Assembly (NCBI GenBank): GCA_027531565.1
Contig: JAPZSB010000007.1
Location: forward strand, 434,001-498,000
Direction of reading: 5' to 3'
Length of the DNA: 64,000 bases
Source: Beijerinckiaceae bacterium
GTDB taxonomy: Bacteria > Pseudomonadota > Alphaproteobacteria > Rhizobiales > Beijerinckiaceae
Both the position numbers and the translations under genes were made by a program. The notes beneath the pieces were generated by a model. That model was not told where the DNA came from. It made no database searches and saw only the letters and a program-made list of their open reading frames with translations. How positions within the stretch are numbered: the first letter of the stretch is position 1; every line of letters begins with the position of its first letter. This document shows, in pieces, positions 27,207 to 44,347 of the stretch.

Positions 27207-28216
27207 TGGCGACGGGTGATACGGGGATGGAGCCGGTTCTCTCGGTCCGCAATCTCAGCCTCGAATTCGTGACACGTCGCGGCGTGCTGCGGGCGCTGAA
27301 CGAGATTTCCTTCGACATCGCCCGCGGCGAGGTGCTGGGAGTCGTCGGCGAATCCGGCGCCGGCAAATCCCTCACCGGAACGGCGATCATCGGGCTGATC
27401 GACAAGCCGGGCCGGCTCTCCGGCGGCGAGATCTGGCTCAAGGGCCAGCGGATCGACAATATCGGCCATGACGGCTTGCGGAAGATCCGCGGCCGGCGGA
27501 TCGGGATGATCTTCCAGGACCCGCTGACCTCGCTGAACCCGCTCTTCCGGGTGGGAGACCAGATTGCCGAGACGATCCTGACGCATATGCCGGTCAGCAA
27601 GGCGGAAGCGCGGTCCCGGGCGCTGGCGCTGCTTACCGAGGTGGGCATTCCCGCACCAGAAAGCCGGATCGATGCCTATCCGCACGAGTTTTCCGGCGGG
27701 ATGCGCCAGCGCGTCGTGATTGCCCTCGCACTGGCAGCGGAACCGGACCTGATCATTGCCGACGAGCCGACCACCGCGCTCGATGTCTCGGTACAGGCGC
27801 AGATCATCACGCTGCTCAAGCGCCTCTGCCGGACGCGCGGCACCTCCGTCATGCTGATCACGCATGATATGGGCGTGATCGCCGAAACGGCCGATCGGGT
27901 GGCCGTGATGTATGCCGGCCGGATCGTCGAGATCGGCCCGGTGGCTGATGTCATCCGCCATCCCCGACATCCCTATGCAACAGGCCTGATGGGCGCGATT
28001 CCGGCTTTGGGGGCGAAGGTCCAGCGCCTGACGCAGATTTCCGGGGCGATGCCGCGGCTGAATGCCATTCCGGCAGGCTGCGCCTTCCGTCCGCGCTGCA
28101 CCGTGGCAATCGGGAAATGTGCCGAGGCGATCCCGCCGCTTGTGCCGGTGGGGGCCACATCGGCGCGATGCTGGCTTCATGAAACGCCGGTCGAATGGAG
28201 TGCGTCCCATGGCTGA
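27206..28216 (+). CDS. ABC transporter ATP-binding protein, DppD type
   Basis: Protein of 336 aa. Walker A is GESGAGKS, the signature FSGGMRQRV and Walker B LIIADEPTTALD are intact, and the C-terminal oligopeptide-type extension has a Cys cluster (GCAFRPRCTVAIGKC) that may bind a 4Fe-4S cluster as in related transporters. The ATG at 27206 shares a base with the preceding stop codon. It energises import together with the next ATPase. Confidence 0.93.
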   Translation: MATGDTGMEPVLSVRNLSLEFVTRRGVLRALNEISFDIARGEVLGVVGESGAGKSLTGTAIIGLIDKPGRLSGGEIWLKGQRIDNIGHDGLRKIRGRRIGMIFQDPLTSLNPLFRVGDQIAETILTHMPVSKAEARSRALALLTEVGIPAPESRIDAYPHEFSGGMRQRVVIALALAAEPDLIIADEPTTALDVSVQAQIITLLKRLCRTRGTSVMLITHDMGVIAETADRVAVMYAGRIVEIGPVADVIRHPRHPYATGLMGAIPALGAKVQRLTQISGAMPRLNAIPAGCAFRPRCTVAIGKCAEAIPPLVPVGATSARCWLHETPVEWSASHG

Positions 28217-29186
28217 GCCCGTGCTGCGCGTCGAGAATGTCCGCCGGCTCTTCGATGTCTCGAAGCCATGGCTGGAACGCGTGATCTCGCGCGAGAAGCC
28301 GCAGTTCCTGCGGGCTGTCGACGAGGTTTCCTTCGAGATCCGCCCCGGCGAGACCTTTGCCCTTGTCGGCGAATCCGGTTCCGGCAAATCGACCGTCGCG
28401 AAGATGGTGGTCGGCCTGCTGCCGCCCAGCGCGGGCGCGGTGCATTTCTCCGCCTCGATGGGCGGTGCAAAGGTCCGCCCCGGCGCGATCCAGATGATCT
28501 TCCAGGATCCCTATGCCAGCCTCAATCCGCGCTGGCGGATCCGCGATATCATCGCCGAGCCGATGGAAGCGCTGAACCATCCCGCCGACCCGGCTGCGCG
28601 AGAGGCACGCGTTGCCGATCTGCTTACGCTGGTCGGGCTGTCGCCGCTGGATGGCGAGAAATATCCGCACCAGTTTTCCGGCGGCCAGCGCCAGCGTGTC
28701 GCGATTGCGCGGGCCCTTTCATCAGAACCGCAATTCCTGGTTTGCGACGAGCCGACCTCCGCGCTCGACGTCTCCGTCCAGGCACAGATCCTCAACCTGA
28801 TGCGCGACCTGCAGGAGCGGCTTGGGCTGACCTATCTCTTCATCTCGCACAATCTGGCGGTGGTCCGGCACATGGCCCACCGGATCGGCGTGATGTATCT
28901 GGGCCGGCTGGTCGAGGTGCAGGAGACGGAAGCGCTGTTCGCGGCGCCGCGCCATCCCTATACGCGGCTGCTGATCGACGCGGTGCCCGATCTCGAGCAG
29001 ATCGGGCGGGACCGCGTGCCCGTGCAGGGCGAGGTTCCGAGCCCGATCAACCCGCCCTCCGGCTGCACCTTCCATCCCCGCTGCCCGCTGGCGATGGAGA
29101 TCTGCAGGCGGGAGGTGCCGGCATTTGACGGCTCGGTGGCCTGCCATGCCGCCAACGACCGGGCGGTCAGCCCGTCCCTCGCCTGA
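28209..29186 (+). CDS. ABC transporter ATP-binding protein, DppF type
   Basis: Protein of 325 aa. Walker A GESGSGKST, signature FSGGQRQRV and Walker B FLVCDEPTSALD are intact, and the C-terminus ends in the oligopeptide-type Cys cluster (GCTFHPRCPLAMEIC). Residues about 13-35 form a longer lead-in than in DppD. It overlaps the previous gene by 8 bases and completes the five-gene importer. It converges on the amidase gene after 3 bases. Confidence 0.93.
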   Translation: MAEPVLRVENVRRLFDVSKPWLERVISREKPQFLRAVDEVSFEIRPGETFALVGESGSGKSTVAKMVVGLLPPSAGAVHFSASMGGAKVRPGAIQMIFQDPYASLNPRWRIRDIIAEPMEALNHPADPAAREARVADLLTLVGLSPLDGEKYPHQFSGGQRQRVAIARALSSEPQFLVCDEPTSALDVSVQAQILNLMRDLQERLGLTYLFISHNLAVVRHMAHRIGVMYLGRLVEVQETEALFAAPRHPYTRLLIDAVPDLEQIGRDRVPVQGEVPSPINPPSGCTFHPRCPLAMEICRREVPAFDGSVACHAANDRAVSPSLA

Positions 29187-38810: not shown

Positions 38811-40484
38811 ATGTACCGCTATGACGAATTCGATGCCGCTTTCGTGCGCGATCGTGTGGCGCAATTCTCGGCGCAGGTGGAGCGCCGGCTTTCGGGCGCC
38901 CTGACGGAGGACGAGTTCAAGCCGCTCCGCCTGCAGAACGGCGTCTATCTGCAGCTCCATGCCTACATGCTCCGCATTGCCATTCCCTATGGCACGCTCT
39001 CGGCCCGGCAGCTGCGGCAGCTGGCGCTGATCGGCGAACGGTTCGACCGCGGCTATGGCCATTTCACGACCCGGCAGAACCTCCAATTCAACTGGATCCA
39101 ACTCAAGGACGTTCCGGAGATCCTGTCTCTGCTCGCCGATGTCGAGATGCATGCCATCCAGACCTCCGGCAATTGCATCCGCAATGTCACGGCGGACCAG
39201 TTTGCCGGCGTGGCGGCCGACGAGATCGAGGATCCGCGCCCGGTTGCCGAGCTGATCCGCCAATGGTCGACCGCGCATCCGGAATTCAGTTTCCTGCCCC
39301 GCAAGTTCAAGATCGCGGTGACCGGTGCGGAAGAGGACCGGGCCGCTGTTGCCGTGCACGACATCGGGCTGCGCATCGTCCGCCACCCGGAGACCGGAGA
39401 GACCGGCTATGCCGTGCTGGTCGGCGGGGGCCTCGGGCGGACACCGATGGTCGGTAAATGGGTGCGCGACTTCCTGCCCAAACCGCATCTGCTCGCCTAT
39501 CTCGAAGCGCTGATGCGCGTCTACAATGCCGAGGGGCGGCGGGACAACAAGTACAAGGCCCGCGTGAAGATCCTCGTCCACGAGATCGGGATCGAGGCGT
39601 TCCGGGCCCGTGTCGAGGCGGAATTCGCTCAGCTCGATCCGCAGCGGATCCAGGCGGATGCCTCGGAGGTCGAGCGGATCGCACGGTATTTCGCGCCGCC
39701 AGCCCATGCCGATCTGCCGGACAATCCGCCCGCTCTCCGCCGGGCGCGCGCGGCGAACCCGGATTTCGATCGCTGGGTGGAGCAGAACGGCTTCCCGCAC
39801 AAGGTGCCGGGCTATCAGGCGGTCACGCTGTCGCTGAAGGGCATCGGCGAGGCGCCGGGCGATATCAGTTCGGCCGGCATGCGCCTCGTCGCCGATCTTG
39901 CCGATCGCTACTCCTTCGGCGAAATCCGCGTCACGCATGCGCAGAACCTCGTCCTGCCTCATATCCGGCAGGAGGATCTCCACGACCTCTGGCAGGCACT
40001 CGCCGCCGGGGGGCTTGCCACCGCGAATGCCGGCCTGATCACCGACATCATCGCCTGCCCCGGCCTCGATTACTGCGCGCTGGCGACGGCCCGCTCGATC
40101 CCCATCGCGCAGGCGCTGGCGACGCGGTTCGCCGCCCCCGAACGCCAGCGGGAAATCGGGCCGCTGGCCATCAAGATCTCCGGCTGCATCAATGCCTGCG
40201 GCCATCACCATGTCGGGCATATCGGCATTCTCGGCCTCGAGAAGCGCGGCGAGGAATCCTACCAGATCACCCTTGGCGGCGATGCCGGCAATGCCAGCGC
40301 GATCGGGGAGATCCTCGGGCCGGGGCTTGTCGCGGGCGACGTGCCCGACGCGATCGAGCGGCTGGTTGCCGTCTATCTCGCGCATCGCAAGCCGGGCGAA
40401 GTGTTTGTCGAATCCGTGCGGCGGCTGGGTATCCAGCCGTTCAAGACGGCCTTCAACGCGGAGATTCGCCATGACGCTGCTTGA
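38811..40484 (+). CDS. cysI: Siroheme-dependent nitrite/sulfite reductase
   Basis: Protein of 557 aa with the two ferredoxin-like and two siroheme/Fe-S repeats of the family. The siroheme-4Fe-4S ligands are Cys416 and Cys422 (CPGLDYC) and Cys459 and Cys463 (CINACGHH). GHFTTRQNLQFNWIQL is the N-terminal siroheme arginine segment. The length and operon indicate sulfite reduction to sulfide, with an external electron donor since no cysJ is present. CysG downstream makes its siroheme. Confidence 0.93.
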   Translation: MYRYDEFDAAFVRDRVAQFSAQVERRLSGALTEDEFKPLRLQNGVYLQLHAYMLRIAIPYGTLSARQLRQLALIGERFDRGYGHFTTRQNLQFNWIQLKDVPEILSLLADVEMHAIQTSGNCIRNVTADQFAGVAADEIEDPRPVAELIRQWSTAHPEFSFLPRKFKIAVTGAEEDRAAVAVHDIGLRIVRHPETGETGYAVLVGGGLGRTPMVGKWVRDFLPKPHLLAYLEALMRVYNAEGRRDNKYKARVKILVHEIGIEAFRARVEAEFAQLDPQRIQADASEVERIARYFAPPAHADLPDNPPALRRARAANPDFDRWVEQNGFPHKVPGYQAVTLSLKGIGEAPGDISSAGMRLVADLADRYSFGEIRVTHAQNLVLPHIRQEDLHDLWQALAAGGLATANAGLITDIIACPGLDYCALATARSIPIAQALATRFAAPERQREIGPLAIKISGCINACGHHHVGHIGILGLEKRGEESYQITLGGDAGNASAIGEILGPGLVAGDVPDAIERLVAVYLAHRKPGEVFVESVRRLGIQPFKTAFNAEIRHDAA

Positions 40485-40983
40485 TCGCCACGGGTTCCGG
40501 CCCGACCCCTTCCGGCGGCTTCCGGCGTCGGAGATTGCCGGGCATCCGGCCGTCATCCTGCCGCTGGCGGAGCTGCAATCCGGGCTGCTGGTCCGTACCG
40601 GCGGCCAGCGGATCGGCATCGACATCGCCAACACCGTTCCGGCGGAAGAGGCGGCGTCGCTGGCCAACCAGGTTGACCTGATCGCCATCGCCTTCCCGGG
40701 CTTTGCCGATGGTCGCGGGTTCACGCTTGGCCGCCGCCTGCGCCAGGCCGGCTTCCGCGGCATTCTCCGGGCCGTGGGGCCGCTGATCCCGGACCAGTTT
40801 GCCTATGCCCTTGCCTGCGGCTTCGACGAGGTGGAACTGCCCGATGCGGTGGCAGCGCGGCAGGGCGAGGCGGCGTGGCTCGCCGATCTTTCGATCTACC
40901 GGCACAGCTACCAGCGGGACTATGCCCGCGGCCGGAACATCCTCGACGCCCGGCGCGCGGCCCGGAACGGCGGTGCCGCATGA
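40471..40983 (+). CDS. DUF934 domain protein (cys operon)
   Basis: Protein of 170 aa. Recognised by the DUF934 pattern: GIDIANTVPAEEAASLANQVDLIAIAFPGFADGRGF, GFRGILRAVGPLIPDQFAYALACGFDEVEL and YQRDYA near the end. The family is found next to cysI and cysH in many proteobacteria and is suggested to help sulfite reduction; its role is unproven. Its start overlaps the cysI end by 14 bases and its stop overlaps the cysH start. Confidence 0.87.
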   Translation: MTLLDRHGFRPDPFRRLPASEIAGHPAVILPLAELQSGLLVRTGGQRIGIDIANTVPAEEAASLANQVDLIAIAFPGFADGRGFTLGRRLRQAGFRGILRAVGPLIPDQFAYALACGFDEVELPDAVAARQGEAAWLADLSIYRHSYQRDYARGRNILDARRAARNGGAA

Positions 40984-41717
40984 CGGAAGCCAGCGCCAAC
41001 GACCTCGCCCTCGCGCTGGCCGAGTTGCCGCTCGCAGCGAGGCTGCGGAAGATCCGGATGGCTTTCGAAGGCAAGCTCGTCTTCACGACCAGCCTCGGGC
41101 TTGAGGATCAGGTCCTGACCCATCTCATCTTCAGCGAGGGACTGGATATCGAGGTGGCGACGCTCGACACTGGCCGCCTGTTCCCGGAAACCTATGCGCT
41201 CTGGGCCGACACGGAGATGCATTACGGACGGCGGATACGCGGCTATGCGCCGGACCGGATCGCCATCGAACGGCTGCTCGACGACCAGGGCATCAATGGT
41301 TTCCGGCTCTCGCCGGACGCACGGAAGGCCTGCTGCCATGTGCGCAAGGTCGAGCCGCTCCAGCGCGTTCTCGCCGGGGCGGAGGGCTGGCTGACAGGCC
41401 TGCGCGCCAACCAGTCGAGCTTCCGGCAGGGAACCGGTGCGCTGCGTTTCGACCCGGAATTCGGACTTTGGAAGATCAACCCGCTCTTCGACCAGACCCG
41501 CGAGGGCCTCGTTGACCTCGCGGGGCGTTGGTCGATCCCCGTCAATCCGCTCCACGCCGCCGGTTTCCTGTCGATCGGTTGCCAGCCCTGCACCCGGGCA
41601 GTCCAGCCGGGCGAGGACGAGCGCGCCGGGCGCTGGTGGTGGGAGGCGGATGCGAGCCGCGAATGCGGCCTCCATCTCGCCCGCAGCGAACCCGATTCCG
41701 AAGGCCGGAGGGCCTGA
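40980..41717 (+). CDS. cysH: Phosphoadenylyl/adenylyl-sulfate reductase (APS type)
   Basis: Protein of 245 aa. The catalytic Cys is in ECGLH (Cys229). Four more cysteines, Cys118 and Cys119 (KACCH) and Cys201 and Cys204 (GCQPC), match the 4Fe-4S motif of APS reductases, which use APS directly. PAPS-type enzymes lack it. This fits the absence of an APS kinase gene in the operon. The PP-loop region [14 protein letters not shown] binds the adenylyl group. Confidence 0.93.
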
Positions 41718-41718
41718 C

Positions 41719-42621
41719 ATGCACCAGACCAGCCATCTCCGGCGCCTCGAAGCCGAGGCCATCTTCATTTTCCGTGAGGTCTTCGCCACCTGCGACCGGC
41801 CGGTCCTGCTCTATTCGATCGGCAAGGATTCGGCCGTGCTGCTGCATCTGGCGCTGAAGGCTTTCGCGCCGGGGCGGCTGCCCTTCCCGGTGCTGCATGT
41901 CGATACCGGCTGGAAATTCCGCGAGATGATCGCCTTCCGCGATGAAACCGCACGCCGGCTCGGGCTCGACCTGATCGTCCATACCAATCCGGAGGGGCTG
42001 GCTGCCGGCATCGGCCCGCTCACCCATGGCTCGGCCGTCCATACCGACGTGATGAAGACGCAGGCGCTCAAGCAAGCGCTGGACAAACATGGCTTCGATG
42101 CGGCCTTCGGCGGCGCCCGGCGCGACGAGGAGAAATCCCGCGCGAAGGAGCGCATCTTCTCGCTGCGCACGCCGGACCATCGCTGGGATCCGCGGTCGCA
42201 GCGCCCGGAGCCCTGGCTGCTGTTCAATACACGCAAGGCACAGGGCGAGAGCTTCCGTGTCTTCCCGCTCTCGAACTGGACCGAAGCGGATGTGTGGGAC
42301 TACATCGCGCTCGAATCCATCCCGGTCGTGCCGCTCTATTTCGCGAAGCCCCGGCCGGTCGTGCAGCGCAACGGCGCCCTGATCATGCGGGATGACGACC
42401 GCCTGACGCTGCTGCCGGGCGAGGCTCCCGAAATGCGGATGATCCGGTTCCGGACGCTCGGCTGCTACCCGCTGACCGGGGCCGTCGAAAGCCGGGCGGA
42501 CACGCTTGAGGCCGTGCTCGCGGAAATGCGCGAGAGCCGCGTTTCGGAACGCCAGGGCCGTGTGATCGACCACGATTCCACCAGTTCGATGGAAAAGAAG
42601 AAGCAGGAAGGATACTTCTGA
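41719..42621 (+). CDS. cysD: Sulfate adenylyltransferase subunit 2
   Basis: Protein of 300 aa, the ATP sulfurylase catalytic subunit. [20 protein letters not shown] carries the SGGxDS-like PP-loop (here SIGKDS); [16 protein letters not shown] and [17 protein letters not shown] are family blocks, and the C-terminus [10 protein letters not shown] is typical. It makes APS from ATP and sulfate with the CysN GTPase. Its stop codon overlaps the cysN start by one base. Confidence 0.95.
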
Positions 42622-44225
42622 TGCTGCCCGCCGTGCTTGCCGCGCGCCACCCCGAACCGGACCTGCCGCAGGTCGCCCAGGCCATCCGCCCGGCCGAACG
42701 CAGCCTCCTCCGTTTCATCACCTGCGGCTCGGTAGATGACGGCAAGTCGACGCTGCTCGGCCGCCTGCTCTGGGAAACCGGCGCCGTCTACGAGGACCAG
42801 GCCGAGGCGCTGGCGCGGGATTCCGCCCGGTTCGGCACGGACGGCAAGAACCGTGACTACGCGCTGCTTGTCGACGGGCTCTCCGCCGAACGCGAGCAGG
42901 GCATCACGATCGATGTCGCCTATCGCTATTTCGCGACGCCCCGTCGTGCCTTCATCGCCGCCGATACGCCGGGCCACGAACAATATACCCGGAACATGGC
43001 GACGGGGGCCTCGACGGCGGATGTGGCGATCCTGCTGGTGGATGCGCGCAAGGGGGTTCTGCCACAGACGCGCCGGCATTCCTCGATCGTCTCGCTGGTG
43101 GGGGTGAAGGATATCATCGTCGCCATCAACAAGATGGATCTTGTCGGGTTCGACGAGGCCGTCTTCCGGCGGATCGAGGCCGAGTATCGCGCTCTGGCGG
43201 AACAACTCGGCTTCCGGTCGATCCATGTCCTGCCGTTGGTGGCGCGGGATGGCGACACCCTCACCCGCCGCTCCGGGCGCATGCCGTGGTATGCCGGGCC
43301 GACGCTGCTCGACCTCATCGAAACGCTCGAGCCGGTCCTTCCGACCGACGGCCGGTTCTTCCTGCCCGTCCAGTGGGTGAACCGCCCGGATGCCGATTTC
43401 CGCGGCTTTTCCGGAACCATTGCCAGCGGGCAGATCCGGGTCGGCGATCCCGTCACCATCCTGCCGCAGGGCCGCGCGAGCCGGATCGCGGAGATCCTGA
43501 CGCCGGAAGGCACCCGGAGCGCCGCGAAAGCCGGCGAGGCCGTGACCGTCACGCTTGCCGACGAGACCGATGTCGTGCGCGGTGACGTGATCACGCTGGG
43601 GCACCGGCCGGGCCACACAACCGGAACGCTGACCGCCCGGCTGCTGGTGCTCGGCGAGCGTCGGCTCGCGCCCGGAGACCGAATGCTGATCAAGCTCGGA
43701 TGCGCGACGGTTCCGGCACGTTTCGAGGCGCTCGCCCATGAATTGTCCGTCGAGGACCTTTCGCCCCGGCCCGCCGGGCATCTCGCGATGAACGGGATCG
43801 GGAAGGTTGTCCTGCGGCCCGAAGCCCCGCTCTTCGCCCTGCCCTATGAGGAATGCCGGACGCTGGGCAGCTTCCTGCTGATCGATCCGATCACCCATGC
43901 CACCCTGGCCATGGGCGTCATCGACACGGTCTCGGGCCCCTCCCGCGAAGCCTCCACAAGGCCGGGCAAGCCGGCACCTGCCGTGCTCCCGCGGTTCTGG
44001 CCGAAGAGCCGGGTGGAACGGACGCGCCTTGCCGTCACGACCCTTGCCTTCGCGCTGGCCGGGTTCCTGCTCACCGGTACGCTGGCCGGCGCGCTGGCTC
44101 TCGCAGCCCTCGACGCAATCGGGCGGCCGCTGCTGCATGCGCTGCAGGACCGGTTCTGGCCTGCCGGCGAAAGGCCGGCCTCTGCCCCGGTTCCGGAACC
44201 GGGCCTCGACGGAGGCGGCATATGA
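42621..44225 (+). CDS. cysN: Sulfate adenylyltransferase subunit 1 (CysN) fused to a DUF2061-like membrane tail
   Basis: Protein of 534 aa. Residues 1 to about 444 are a normal CysN GTPase: GSVDDGKST (P-loop), DTPGHEQY and NKMDLVGF, then the EF-Tu-like barrels. CysN alone is about 475 aa and CysNC fusions carry an APS kinase here; this protein instead has about 90 extra residues, with a basic segment (KSRVERTRLA), a hydrophobic stretch (about 469-495) and GRPLLHALQDRFW. That resembles DUF2061, a small two-helix membrane domain. Its Walker-type kinase motif is absent. It would anchor ATP sulfurylase to the membrane, which is an inference. The next gene overlaps it by 4 bases. Confidence 0.9.
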   Translation: MLPAVLAARHPEPDLPQVAQAIRPAERSLLRFITCGSVDDGKSTLLGRLLWETGAVYEDQAEALARDSARFGTDGKNRDYALLVDGLSAEREQGITIDVAYRYFATPRRAFIAADTPGHEQYTRNMATGASTADVAILLVDARKGVLPQTRRHSSIVSLVGVKDIIVAINKMDLVGFDEAVFRRIEAEYRALAEQLGFRSIHVLPLVARDGDTLTRRSGRMPWYAGPTLLDLIETLEPVLPTDGRFFLPVQWVNRPDADFRGFSGTIASGQIRVGDPVTILPQGRASRIAEILTPEGTRSAAKAGEAVTVTLADETDVVRGDVITLGHRPGHTTGTLTARLLVLGERRLAPGDRMLIKLGCATVPARFEALAHELSVEDLSPRPAGHLAMNGIGKVVLRPEAPLFALPYEECRTLGSFLLIDPITHATLAMGVIDTVSGPSREASTRPGKPAPAVLPRFWPKSRVERTRLAVTTLAFALAGFLLTGTLAGALALAALDAIGRPLLHALQDRFWPAGERPASAPVPEPGLDGGGI

Positions 44226-44347
44226 ACCCGCCCCCCGCCCATCGCCACGAATGGGCCTTCCGCCTGCTGCTGCTGGCGCTGACGTTGCTCTGGCTGCTCC
44301 TGCCATCGGCGCGGGCCTATGCCCTTGCCGCCATGGTGCTGGCATGA
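44222..44347 (+). CDS. Small membrane peptide between cysN and cysG
   Basis: A 41-codon gene. Its ATG overlaps the cysN stop codon (ATGA) and its stop codon overlaps the cysG start codon (ATGA), which strongly suggests coupled translation. The peptide has a polar N-terminus (MNPPPAHRHEW), one hydrophobic helix (AFRLLLLALTLLWLLLP) and a short tail. No family is recognised. Together with the hydrophobic tail of CysN it may form a membrane platform. It could instead be a spacer frame without a function, but the double coupling argues against that. Confidence 0.6.
   Translation: MNPPPAHRHEWAFRLLLLALTLLWLLLPSARAYALAAMVLA

Follow-up and report, generated by a model that had tools for sequence, protein, structure and literature searches.

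A predicted membrane-tethered ATP sulfurylase subunit with a conserved C-terminus that may dock CysK

Introduction

Beyond its GTPase core, the ATP sulfurylase large subunit CysN of a Beijerinckiaceae bacterium continues in frame into an additional C-terminal tail. This raises the question of what the tail is and what it does for sulfate activation. An earlier note on this DNA, made from the sequence alone, described the tail as a membrane anchor. Its last five residues, which the note overlooked, turn out to be conserved and to resemble the ends of serine acetyltransferase (SAT).

Results

The locus and the CysN core

The window, i.e. the whole stretch of 64,000 nucleotides that was analysed (G000:C13:434001-498000), belongs to a genome of 3.67 Mb. 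It carries a sulfate-assimilation cluster consisting of a hemoprotein ORF, an ORF that we take to be DUF934-like, cysH, cysD and cysN.

38811-40484, plus strand: hemoprotein of the sulfite/nitrite-reductase type (CysI-like), located upstream within the cluster
40980-41717, plus strand: cysH, APS-type reductase, from profile matches
41719-42621, plus strand: cysD, ATP sulfurylase small subunit, from its translation; start inferred from the ORF; homologues in relatives
42621-44225, plus strand: cysN-DUF2061 gene, 534 aa plus stop, with a 1-base overlap with the cysD stop
42708-43922, plus strand: CysN GTPase core, residues 30-434, from its TIGR02034 match; PDB 1zun_B is the best match in sequence and fold

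Of the NCBIfam models listed for the hemoprotein, none is matched above its cut-off. The ORF that ends at 42621 and adjoins cysN is assumed to belong to the CysD family. A 41-aa hydrophobic ORF (44222-44347, plus strand) begins within an ATGA sequence that it shares with the stop codon of cysN.

CysN matches TIGR02034 with 542.5 bits (curated cut-off 336.1) over residues 30-434. Its translation contains GSVDDGKST, DTPGHEQ and NKMD, presumably the GTPase motifs. The best relative in the PDB, in terms of both sequence and fold, is the ATP sulfurylase of Pseudomonas syringae (1zun_B). The best 50 matches of the PDB fold search comprise ATP sulfurylases and translation-factor GTPases, and none of them is informative for the tail.

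The in-frame extension of CysN claimed in the earlier note is real: the ORF is intact and a tail of 97 residues follows residue 437. Four genomes of the same genus (L002-L005) keep the tail in frame, with identities of 87, 86, 83 and 76% over residues 1-534. Because these relatives carry the same in-frame tail, an artefact near it, i.e. a frameshift or the joining of two genes, which the earlier note had named as one case against its reading, is ruled out.

APS kinase and APS reductase

No match to the APS kinase domain (PF01583) was found in the window CysN, nor in its genome at E 1e-10. Among 33 tail-bearing genomes, PF01583 has no match in 24, a full domain in seven and partial matches alone in two. 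In six of the seven, the full domain belongs to an open frame 642-697 aa long, which is the size of a CysNC. The notion that the tail takes the place of a kinase thus holds for the genome of origin but is not absolute, as 7/33 tail-bearing genomes possess a full kinase domain.

The window CysH scores 212.9 bits against the APS_reductase model TIGR02055, below the cut-off of 235.3, and 219.9 bits against the general model PRK02090, above the cut-off of 154. Paired-cysteine motifs are visible in its sequence and presumably mark an APS-type reductase. Together with the missing PF01583 match, these scores agree with the kinase-free pathway and APS-type reductase suggested before.

A probable DUF2061 hairpin in the tail

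The tail is divided as follows.

43932-44009, plus strand: linker, residues 438-463, mostly of low confidence (AlphaFold pLDDT < 50 for 441-460)
44010-44156, plus strand: predicted two-helix hairpin, residues 464-485 and 488-512, probably a diverged DUF2061 (profiles, AlphaFold, hydropathy)
44157-44222, plus strand: flexible tail, residues 513-534 (pLDDT < 50), little conserved across relatives except for the last five residues
44208-44222, plus strand: C-terminal DGGGI, a SAT-like candidate CysK-docking peptide (SAT-end profile, conservation, codons)

Against DUF2061 (PF09834), the tail alone reaches 17.4-17.5 bits (E 0.006), which is below the curated gathering cut-off of 23.1. Seven of 13 window-type tails match DUF2061 at E values of up to 1, the best being 1.5e-7. 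The CysN tails of relatives from other genera of the family score between 22 and 81 bits, with the match lying in frame with CysN; the architecture for which the earlier note had proposed a search is thus found in relatives. A profile of the 13 window-type tails, aligned by hhalign with a profile of seven DUF2061-bearing CysN tails, gives 96.3% (E 1.7e-9). The DUF2061 assignment of the earlier note therefore falls short on the HMM score of the window tail itself and is sustained by the profile-profile comparison and by the tails of relatives. Judged from these profiles, the tail appears to be a diverged DUF2061. In the excerpts of the literature available, DUF2061 is mentioned in passing and no function is given.

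The AlphaFold model (single chain, 18-row alignment, mean pLDDT 78) comprises the GTPase, a disordered linker, the helices 464-485 and 488-512 (block-mean pLDDT 65-78) and the disordered residues 513-534. The hydropathy of the tail has one strong peak (KD19 1.98) across the hairpin turn. What had been described as one hydrophobic helix (about 469-495) is indeed a hydrophobic segment, but the model has two helices there. Helix 2 holds conserved charged residues, and a KD19 of 1.6 is passed by 25 of the 34 DUF2061-type representatives. For both reasons full membrane insertion is not certain. The two-helix model and the hydropathy nevertheless make it likely that the tail is a membrane anchor, as proposed earlier, although anchoring alone leaves its CysE-like end unexplained.

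The conserved end of the tail

In alignments, a variable linker after the hairpin is followed by a fixed end, which is DGGGI, DGAGI, DGDGI, DGSGI or LGDGI and, in one sub-clade, DDAGL or DDPGL. For comparison with SAT, a profile was derived from 33 unique 5-mers ending in I or L, taken from the 76 SAT loci of the genomes studied, with a scoring threshold of 5. Of these loci, 43 end in I or L, including 26 in G[IL], and 33 end otherwise. Nine of the 26 G[IL] ends come from proteins below the TIGR01172 cut-off; the sole one of these tested, the EpsC-type SAT of Rhodoblastus, reaches 152.6 bits with an EpsC cut-off of 150.

Of a total of 267 CysN loci, 153 closed CysN without CysC (some places are represented twice) formed 43 groups when clustered at a core identity of 75%. 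The tail counts leave out ten loci that lack a closed ORF or a good core, as well as 104 loci with CysC or a tail longer than 150 aa. Among kinase-less CysN representatives whose tails span 85-125 aa, 30 of 36 fit the SAT-end profile, as opposed to 2 of 311 background genes, all of which were taken from the surroundings of cysN (Fisher 5.5e-35). With stricter training (64 SATs over the TIGR01172 cut-off, 12 loci removed, 25 unique 5-mers) the counts are 23/36 and 2/311. The plain rule of GI or GL at the end is followed by 28/36 representatives and by 0/311 background genes. Counted per distinct sequence, a SAT-like end is present in 100 of 125 CysN (L097, L103 and L112, which are not DUF2061-like, are excluded here). 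The six representatives missed by the profile are L097 and L103, which do not have DUF2061 tails, and four DUF2061 tails (L031, L054, L132 and L316); the latter are the 4/34 DUF2061-type representatives without a SAT-like end.

Most of the 30 scoring ends share I at -1 (29 ends) and G at -4 (29) and -2 (27), and 19 have D at -5. The entropy is lowest at -1 and -4 (0.2 bits each), amounts to 0.6 at -2, reaches 1.7-1.9 at both -3 and -5, and is around 3 from -6 outward. In the g34/g58 sub-clade, the CysN have Leu ends that are partly decayed (DPSL, DDQSL). The last codon of the 30 genes is ATA (12), ATC (11), ATT (6) or CTG (1), all three stop codons are in use, and an overlap with a downstream ATG occurs in ten. 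The possibility that an ATGA overlap with the following gene dictates the terminal Ile is ruled out, because the overlap is restricted to 10/30 and three Ile codons are used.

Two observations lie outside this set. SAT-like ends (DGGGI, DDWSI, KGRGI, GGYSI) are found in 6 of 106 closed long-tail ORFs of the CysNC type (L093, L015, L072, L192, L197 and L186). A CysN from another family (L027, genome G025) with a 64-aa tail ends in PDYVI, comparable to SAT ends of the type FDYVI.

SAT-like ends on other proteins

The only two scoring background genes encode the CysI-like hemoprotein of L076 (EDGADI) and the CysA of L103 (EDYQI). Altogether, 8 of 21 CysI-like ORFs, from the genera g34/g58 and L076, end in EDGADI, ENGADI, EDGSDI or EDGSGI.

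L076 764-2819 and L375-L381: SAT-like-ended hemoproteins, part of these 8/21 CysI-like ORFs

No SAT-like score was obtained for 18 DUF934, 77 CysH, 263 CysD and 9 CysG ORFs; these labels, like CysI-like, reflect resemblance to the ORFs of the window. A set of 20 loci (8.5-13.5 kb) has a scoring CysN in 18 and a scoring hemoprotein in seven, and two more ORFs score (L379 at 2122 and L391 at 11361, both minus strand). Four distinct stand-alone DUF2061 proteins (L033, L034, L036 and L055/L058, from 11 loci of which the rest have no trusted ORF) do not have such an end. Within the window, two of the 247 stop-to-stop ORFs of at least 120 aa reach a score of at least 5. One is cysN. The other runs out of frame over the ORF 28062-29186, which we take from its translation to be of the ABC-transporter type, and was rejected as a second protein with such an end. 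The Geobacter CysA (L103 1724-2896), which ends in FVEDYQI, is a single example.

Since the GGGI core is low in complexity, the conserved end might instead bind a partner other than CysK (e.g. CysD, CysH or a transporter subunit), and its SAT likeness would then be convergence on a small, flexible and glycine-rich end. To our knowledge, no structure exists for such a complex. This explanation is improbable. The acidic residue at -5 (D in 19/30) and the terminal Ile often match SAT ends, internal 5-mers of background proteins attain a SAT-like score in 0.65% of cases, and both background genes with such ends encode sulfur-assimilation proteins, albeit in a background taken from around cysN. CysK is the partner to which the conserved CysE-like end, as a sequence feature that goes beyond anchoring alone, seems to point.

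SAT and CysK in the same genomes

In the genome of origin, SAT ends in IDSGI and CysN in DGGGI. The respective ends are CGGGI and DGAGI in Bosea. Rhodoblastus has DGAGI on both its EpsC-type SAT, which lies just after cysK, and its CysN. In G173, the SAT ends are NGGGI, DPGL and SYSI. SAT ends in I or GL in 17/22 genomes with a scoring CysN and in 2/8 without (p 0.03). With the rule of I or GL applied to both proteins, 19/25 genomes with such a CysN have such a SAT as compared to 0/5 (p 0.003). Both are hand tallies that ignore kinship; the ends of CysN and SAT are loosely associated across genomes. The CysK of the genome of origin (G000) matches TIGR01139 with 439 bits (cut-off 351) and contains TSGNTG and QQFRNPANP, loops that presumably line the peptide pocket.

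According to the available part of PMC12895370, the C-terminus of SAT is located in the CysK active site when both form the cysteine synthase complex, and its C-terminal Ile provides ~80% of the binding energy. The same part describes similar Ile ends on CdiA-CT (GYGI), CymR and EGL-9; the CdiA-CT end is also covered in an excerpt of PMC4961446. The Salmonella SAT peptide YGDGI binds CysK, and GDGI-type peptides alone are weak binders (11.8 for YGDGI and 306 for MNDGI with Salmonella CysK; table values with the unit unstated in the part of PMC9547175 that was available). A literature search, with most subscription papers outside its reach, returned no description of CysK-CysN binding, a CysN-DUF2061 protein or a CysN-Sbp fusion.

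Phylogeny and the CysN of genus g9

In a CysN tree of 68 rows (midpoint root only), the 34 DUF2061-type representatives and five rows of genus g9 form one group of 39 (support 99/99). Within it, a sub-clade of 29 rows (98/93) has the SAT-like end in 29/29. Eight other kinase-less CysN (e.g. L025-L027, L103 and L115) fall outside the group of 39. CysN sampling leans to the own family; a class-wide search of 385 genomes gave, among the matches listed, few full-length ones outside this family.

The window tail stays under the DUF2061 cut-off and tails diverge much among genera, as would be expected from a decaying, functionless remnant of a DUF2061 fusion. Such a remnant is highly improbable, given that the open frame and the terminal motif are kept throughout the sub-clade of 29 with varied Ile codons and stops.

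The CysN of genus g9 has no hairpin. In 16 of 21 genomes (L396, L403, L404, L406, L408-L413 and L415-L420) its tail of 29-38 residues has a terminal short basic stretch (e.g. GGLLAGIKRLFGG), which is amphipathic in 11/11 measured of these 16 and might serve as another kind of membrane anchor. A SAT-like score is attained by 0/16 of these short tails; an FGGI end, present in 7/16, scores 2.7. In the remaining 5 of 21 genomes, CysN runs in frame through a basic stretch and a hydrophobic, signal-peptide-like segment into a periplasmic sulfate-binding protein.

L398 (G608), L399 (G648), L401 (G641), L407 (G137) and L414 (G775): CysN-sulfate-binding-protein fusions

At E 1e-20, none of these five genomes has a TIGR00971 match other than the fused sulfate-binding protein, and the L398 fusion matches SBP_bac_11. 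The proximity to a sulfate importer conjectured in the earlier note gains indirect support from these fusions, whose CysN belongs to the same clade; the sulfate-binding protein of the genome of origin lies on another contig (C11). The fusions have no SAT-like end. Their C-terminus would be outside the inner membrane and beyond the reach of CysK. A hairpin would bring the C-terminus back to the cytoplasmic side, and it is in tails with a hairpin that the SAT-like end occurs. The exception to this rule is the short tail of g9, which is presumably cytosolic yet not SAT-like.

Genus g9 bears on a simpler explanation, in which the tail is a membrane anchor alone, holding ATP sulfurylase close to the sulfate importer, and DGGGI has another partner or none. 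CysN of this genus may reach the membrane otherwise (basic tails in 16/21, fusions in 5/21), and its short ends are SAT-like in 0/16, both in line with anchoring as the common theme. Pure anchoring, which we regard as possible though rather doubtful, offers no explanation for the last five residues being more conserved than the rest of a variable tail end, nor for their similarity to SAT ends.

Discussion

A possible link between the first and last steps

On balance, we favor a predicted membrane-tethered ATP sulfurylase whose tail would dock CysK, at somewhat better than even chances. We infer membrane insertion, orientation, CysK binding and the regulatory consequence from what was computed, i.e. 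the architecture, the hairpin model, the conserved SAT-like end, the missing APS kinase match, and the occurrence in the genome of both CysK and a SAT whose end is alike. A helical hairpin of the DUF2061 type would hold the large subunit at the inner membrane, both hairpin ends facing the cytoplasm. The free C-terminal DGGGI may enter the active site of CysK (O-acetylserine sulfhydrylase) in the fashion of the SAT tail. The tail would capture CysK when O-acetylserine is low and release it when O-acetylserine is high. Capture may lead to inhibition of ATP sulfurylase, mere co-localisation of CysK or protection of CysK. If CysK is recruited and released according to the O-acetylserine level, sulfate activation at the membrane would therefore follow the supply of the final sulfur acceptor. 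As the tail end is like the SAT docking tail, there may be a physical link between the first step of the pathway and the last.

More tentatively, and with the odds somewhat against it, the data can be read as a membrane assembly organised by CysK. Ile-ended ATP sulfurylase (in most of the group), SAT and the hemoprotein of one sub-clade would all dock CysK, which would sense O-acetylserine and control the flux through the first, the reductive and the last step. Through the hairpin, the amphipathic end or the fusion, this assembly would be tied to import.

Docking of CysK through C-terminal Ile peptides has precedents in SAT and a small number of unusual partners. That the sulfate-committing enzyme has kept such an end throughout much of a large clade hints at direct feedback of the last step on the first, and also at a membrane-bound route from the importer to cysteine. 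DUF2061, a family without known function, gains a concrete context.

Comparison with known systems

With the GTP-regulated ATP sulfurylase CysDN (TIGR02034; PDB 1zun), the window protein shares the whole GTPase core and a cysD directly upstream, and the same reaction is expected. It differs by the additional 97-residue tail of predicted hairpin plus peptide. The entry title of 1zun_B is sulfate adenylate transferase subunit 1/adenylylsulfate kinase. The bifunctional ATP sulfurylase/APS kinase CysNC likewise combines this core with a C-terminal module, which is PF01583 there and a DUF2061-like hairpin here. A two-helix module (in the tail, as modelled), a HERxW-like end and profile homology are common to DUF2061 (PF09834) and the tail, whereas the window protein scores below the curated cut-off.

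The cysteine synthase complex (CysE tail in CysK), CdiA-CT, CymR and EGL-9 offer the closest parallel for the end of the tail, as all have a free, flexible, Ile-ended peptide and CysK is encoded in the genome studied here. Unlike in these systems, the peptide sits on ATP sulfurylase, and its docking to CysK is putative. In Arabidopsis, cysteine synthase (OASTL) contacts SULTR1;2 and affects an early step of sulfate acquisition, as described in the available part of PMC4212615. There, the contact is made through the STAS domain of the transporter and not through a C-terminal peptide of ATP sulfurylase.
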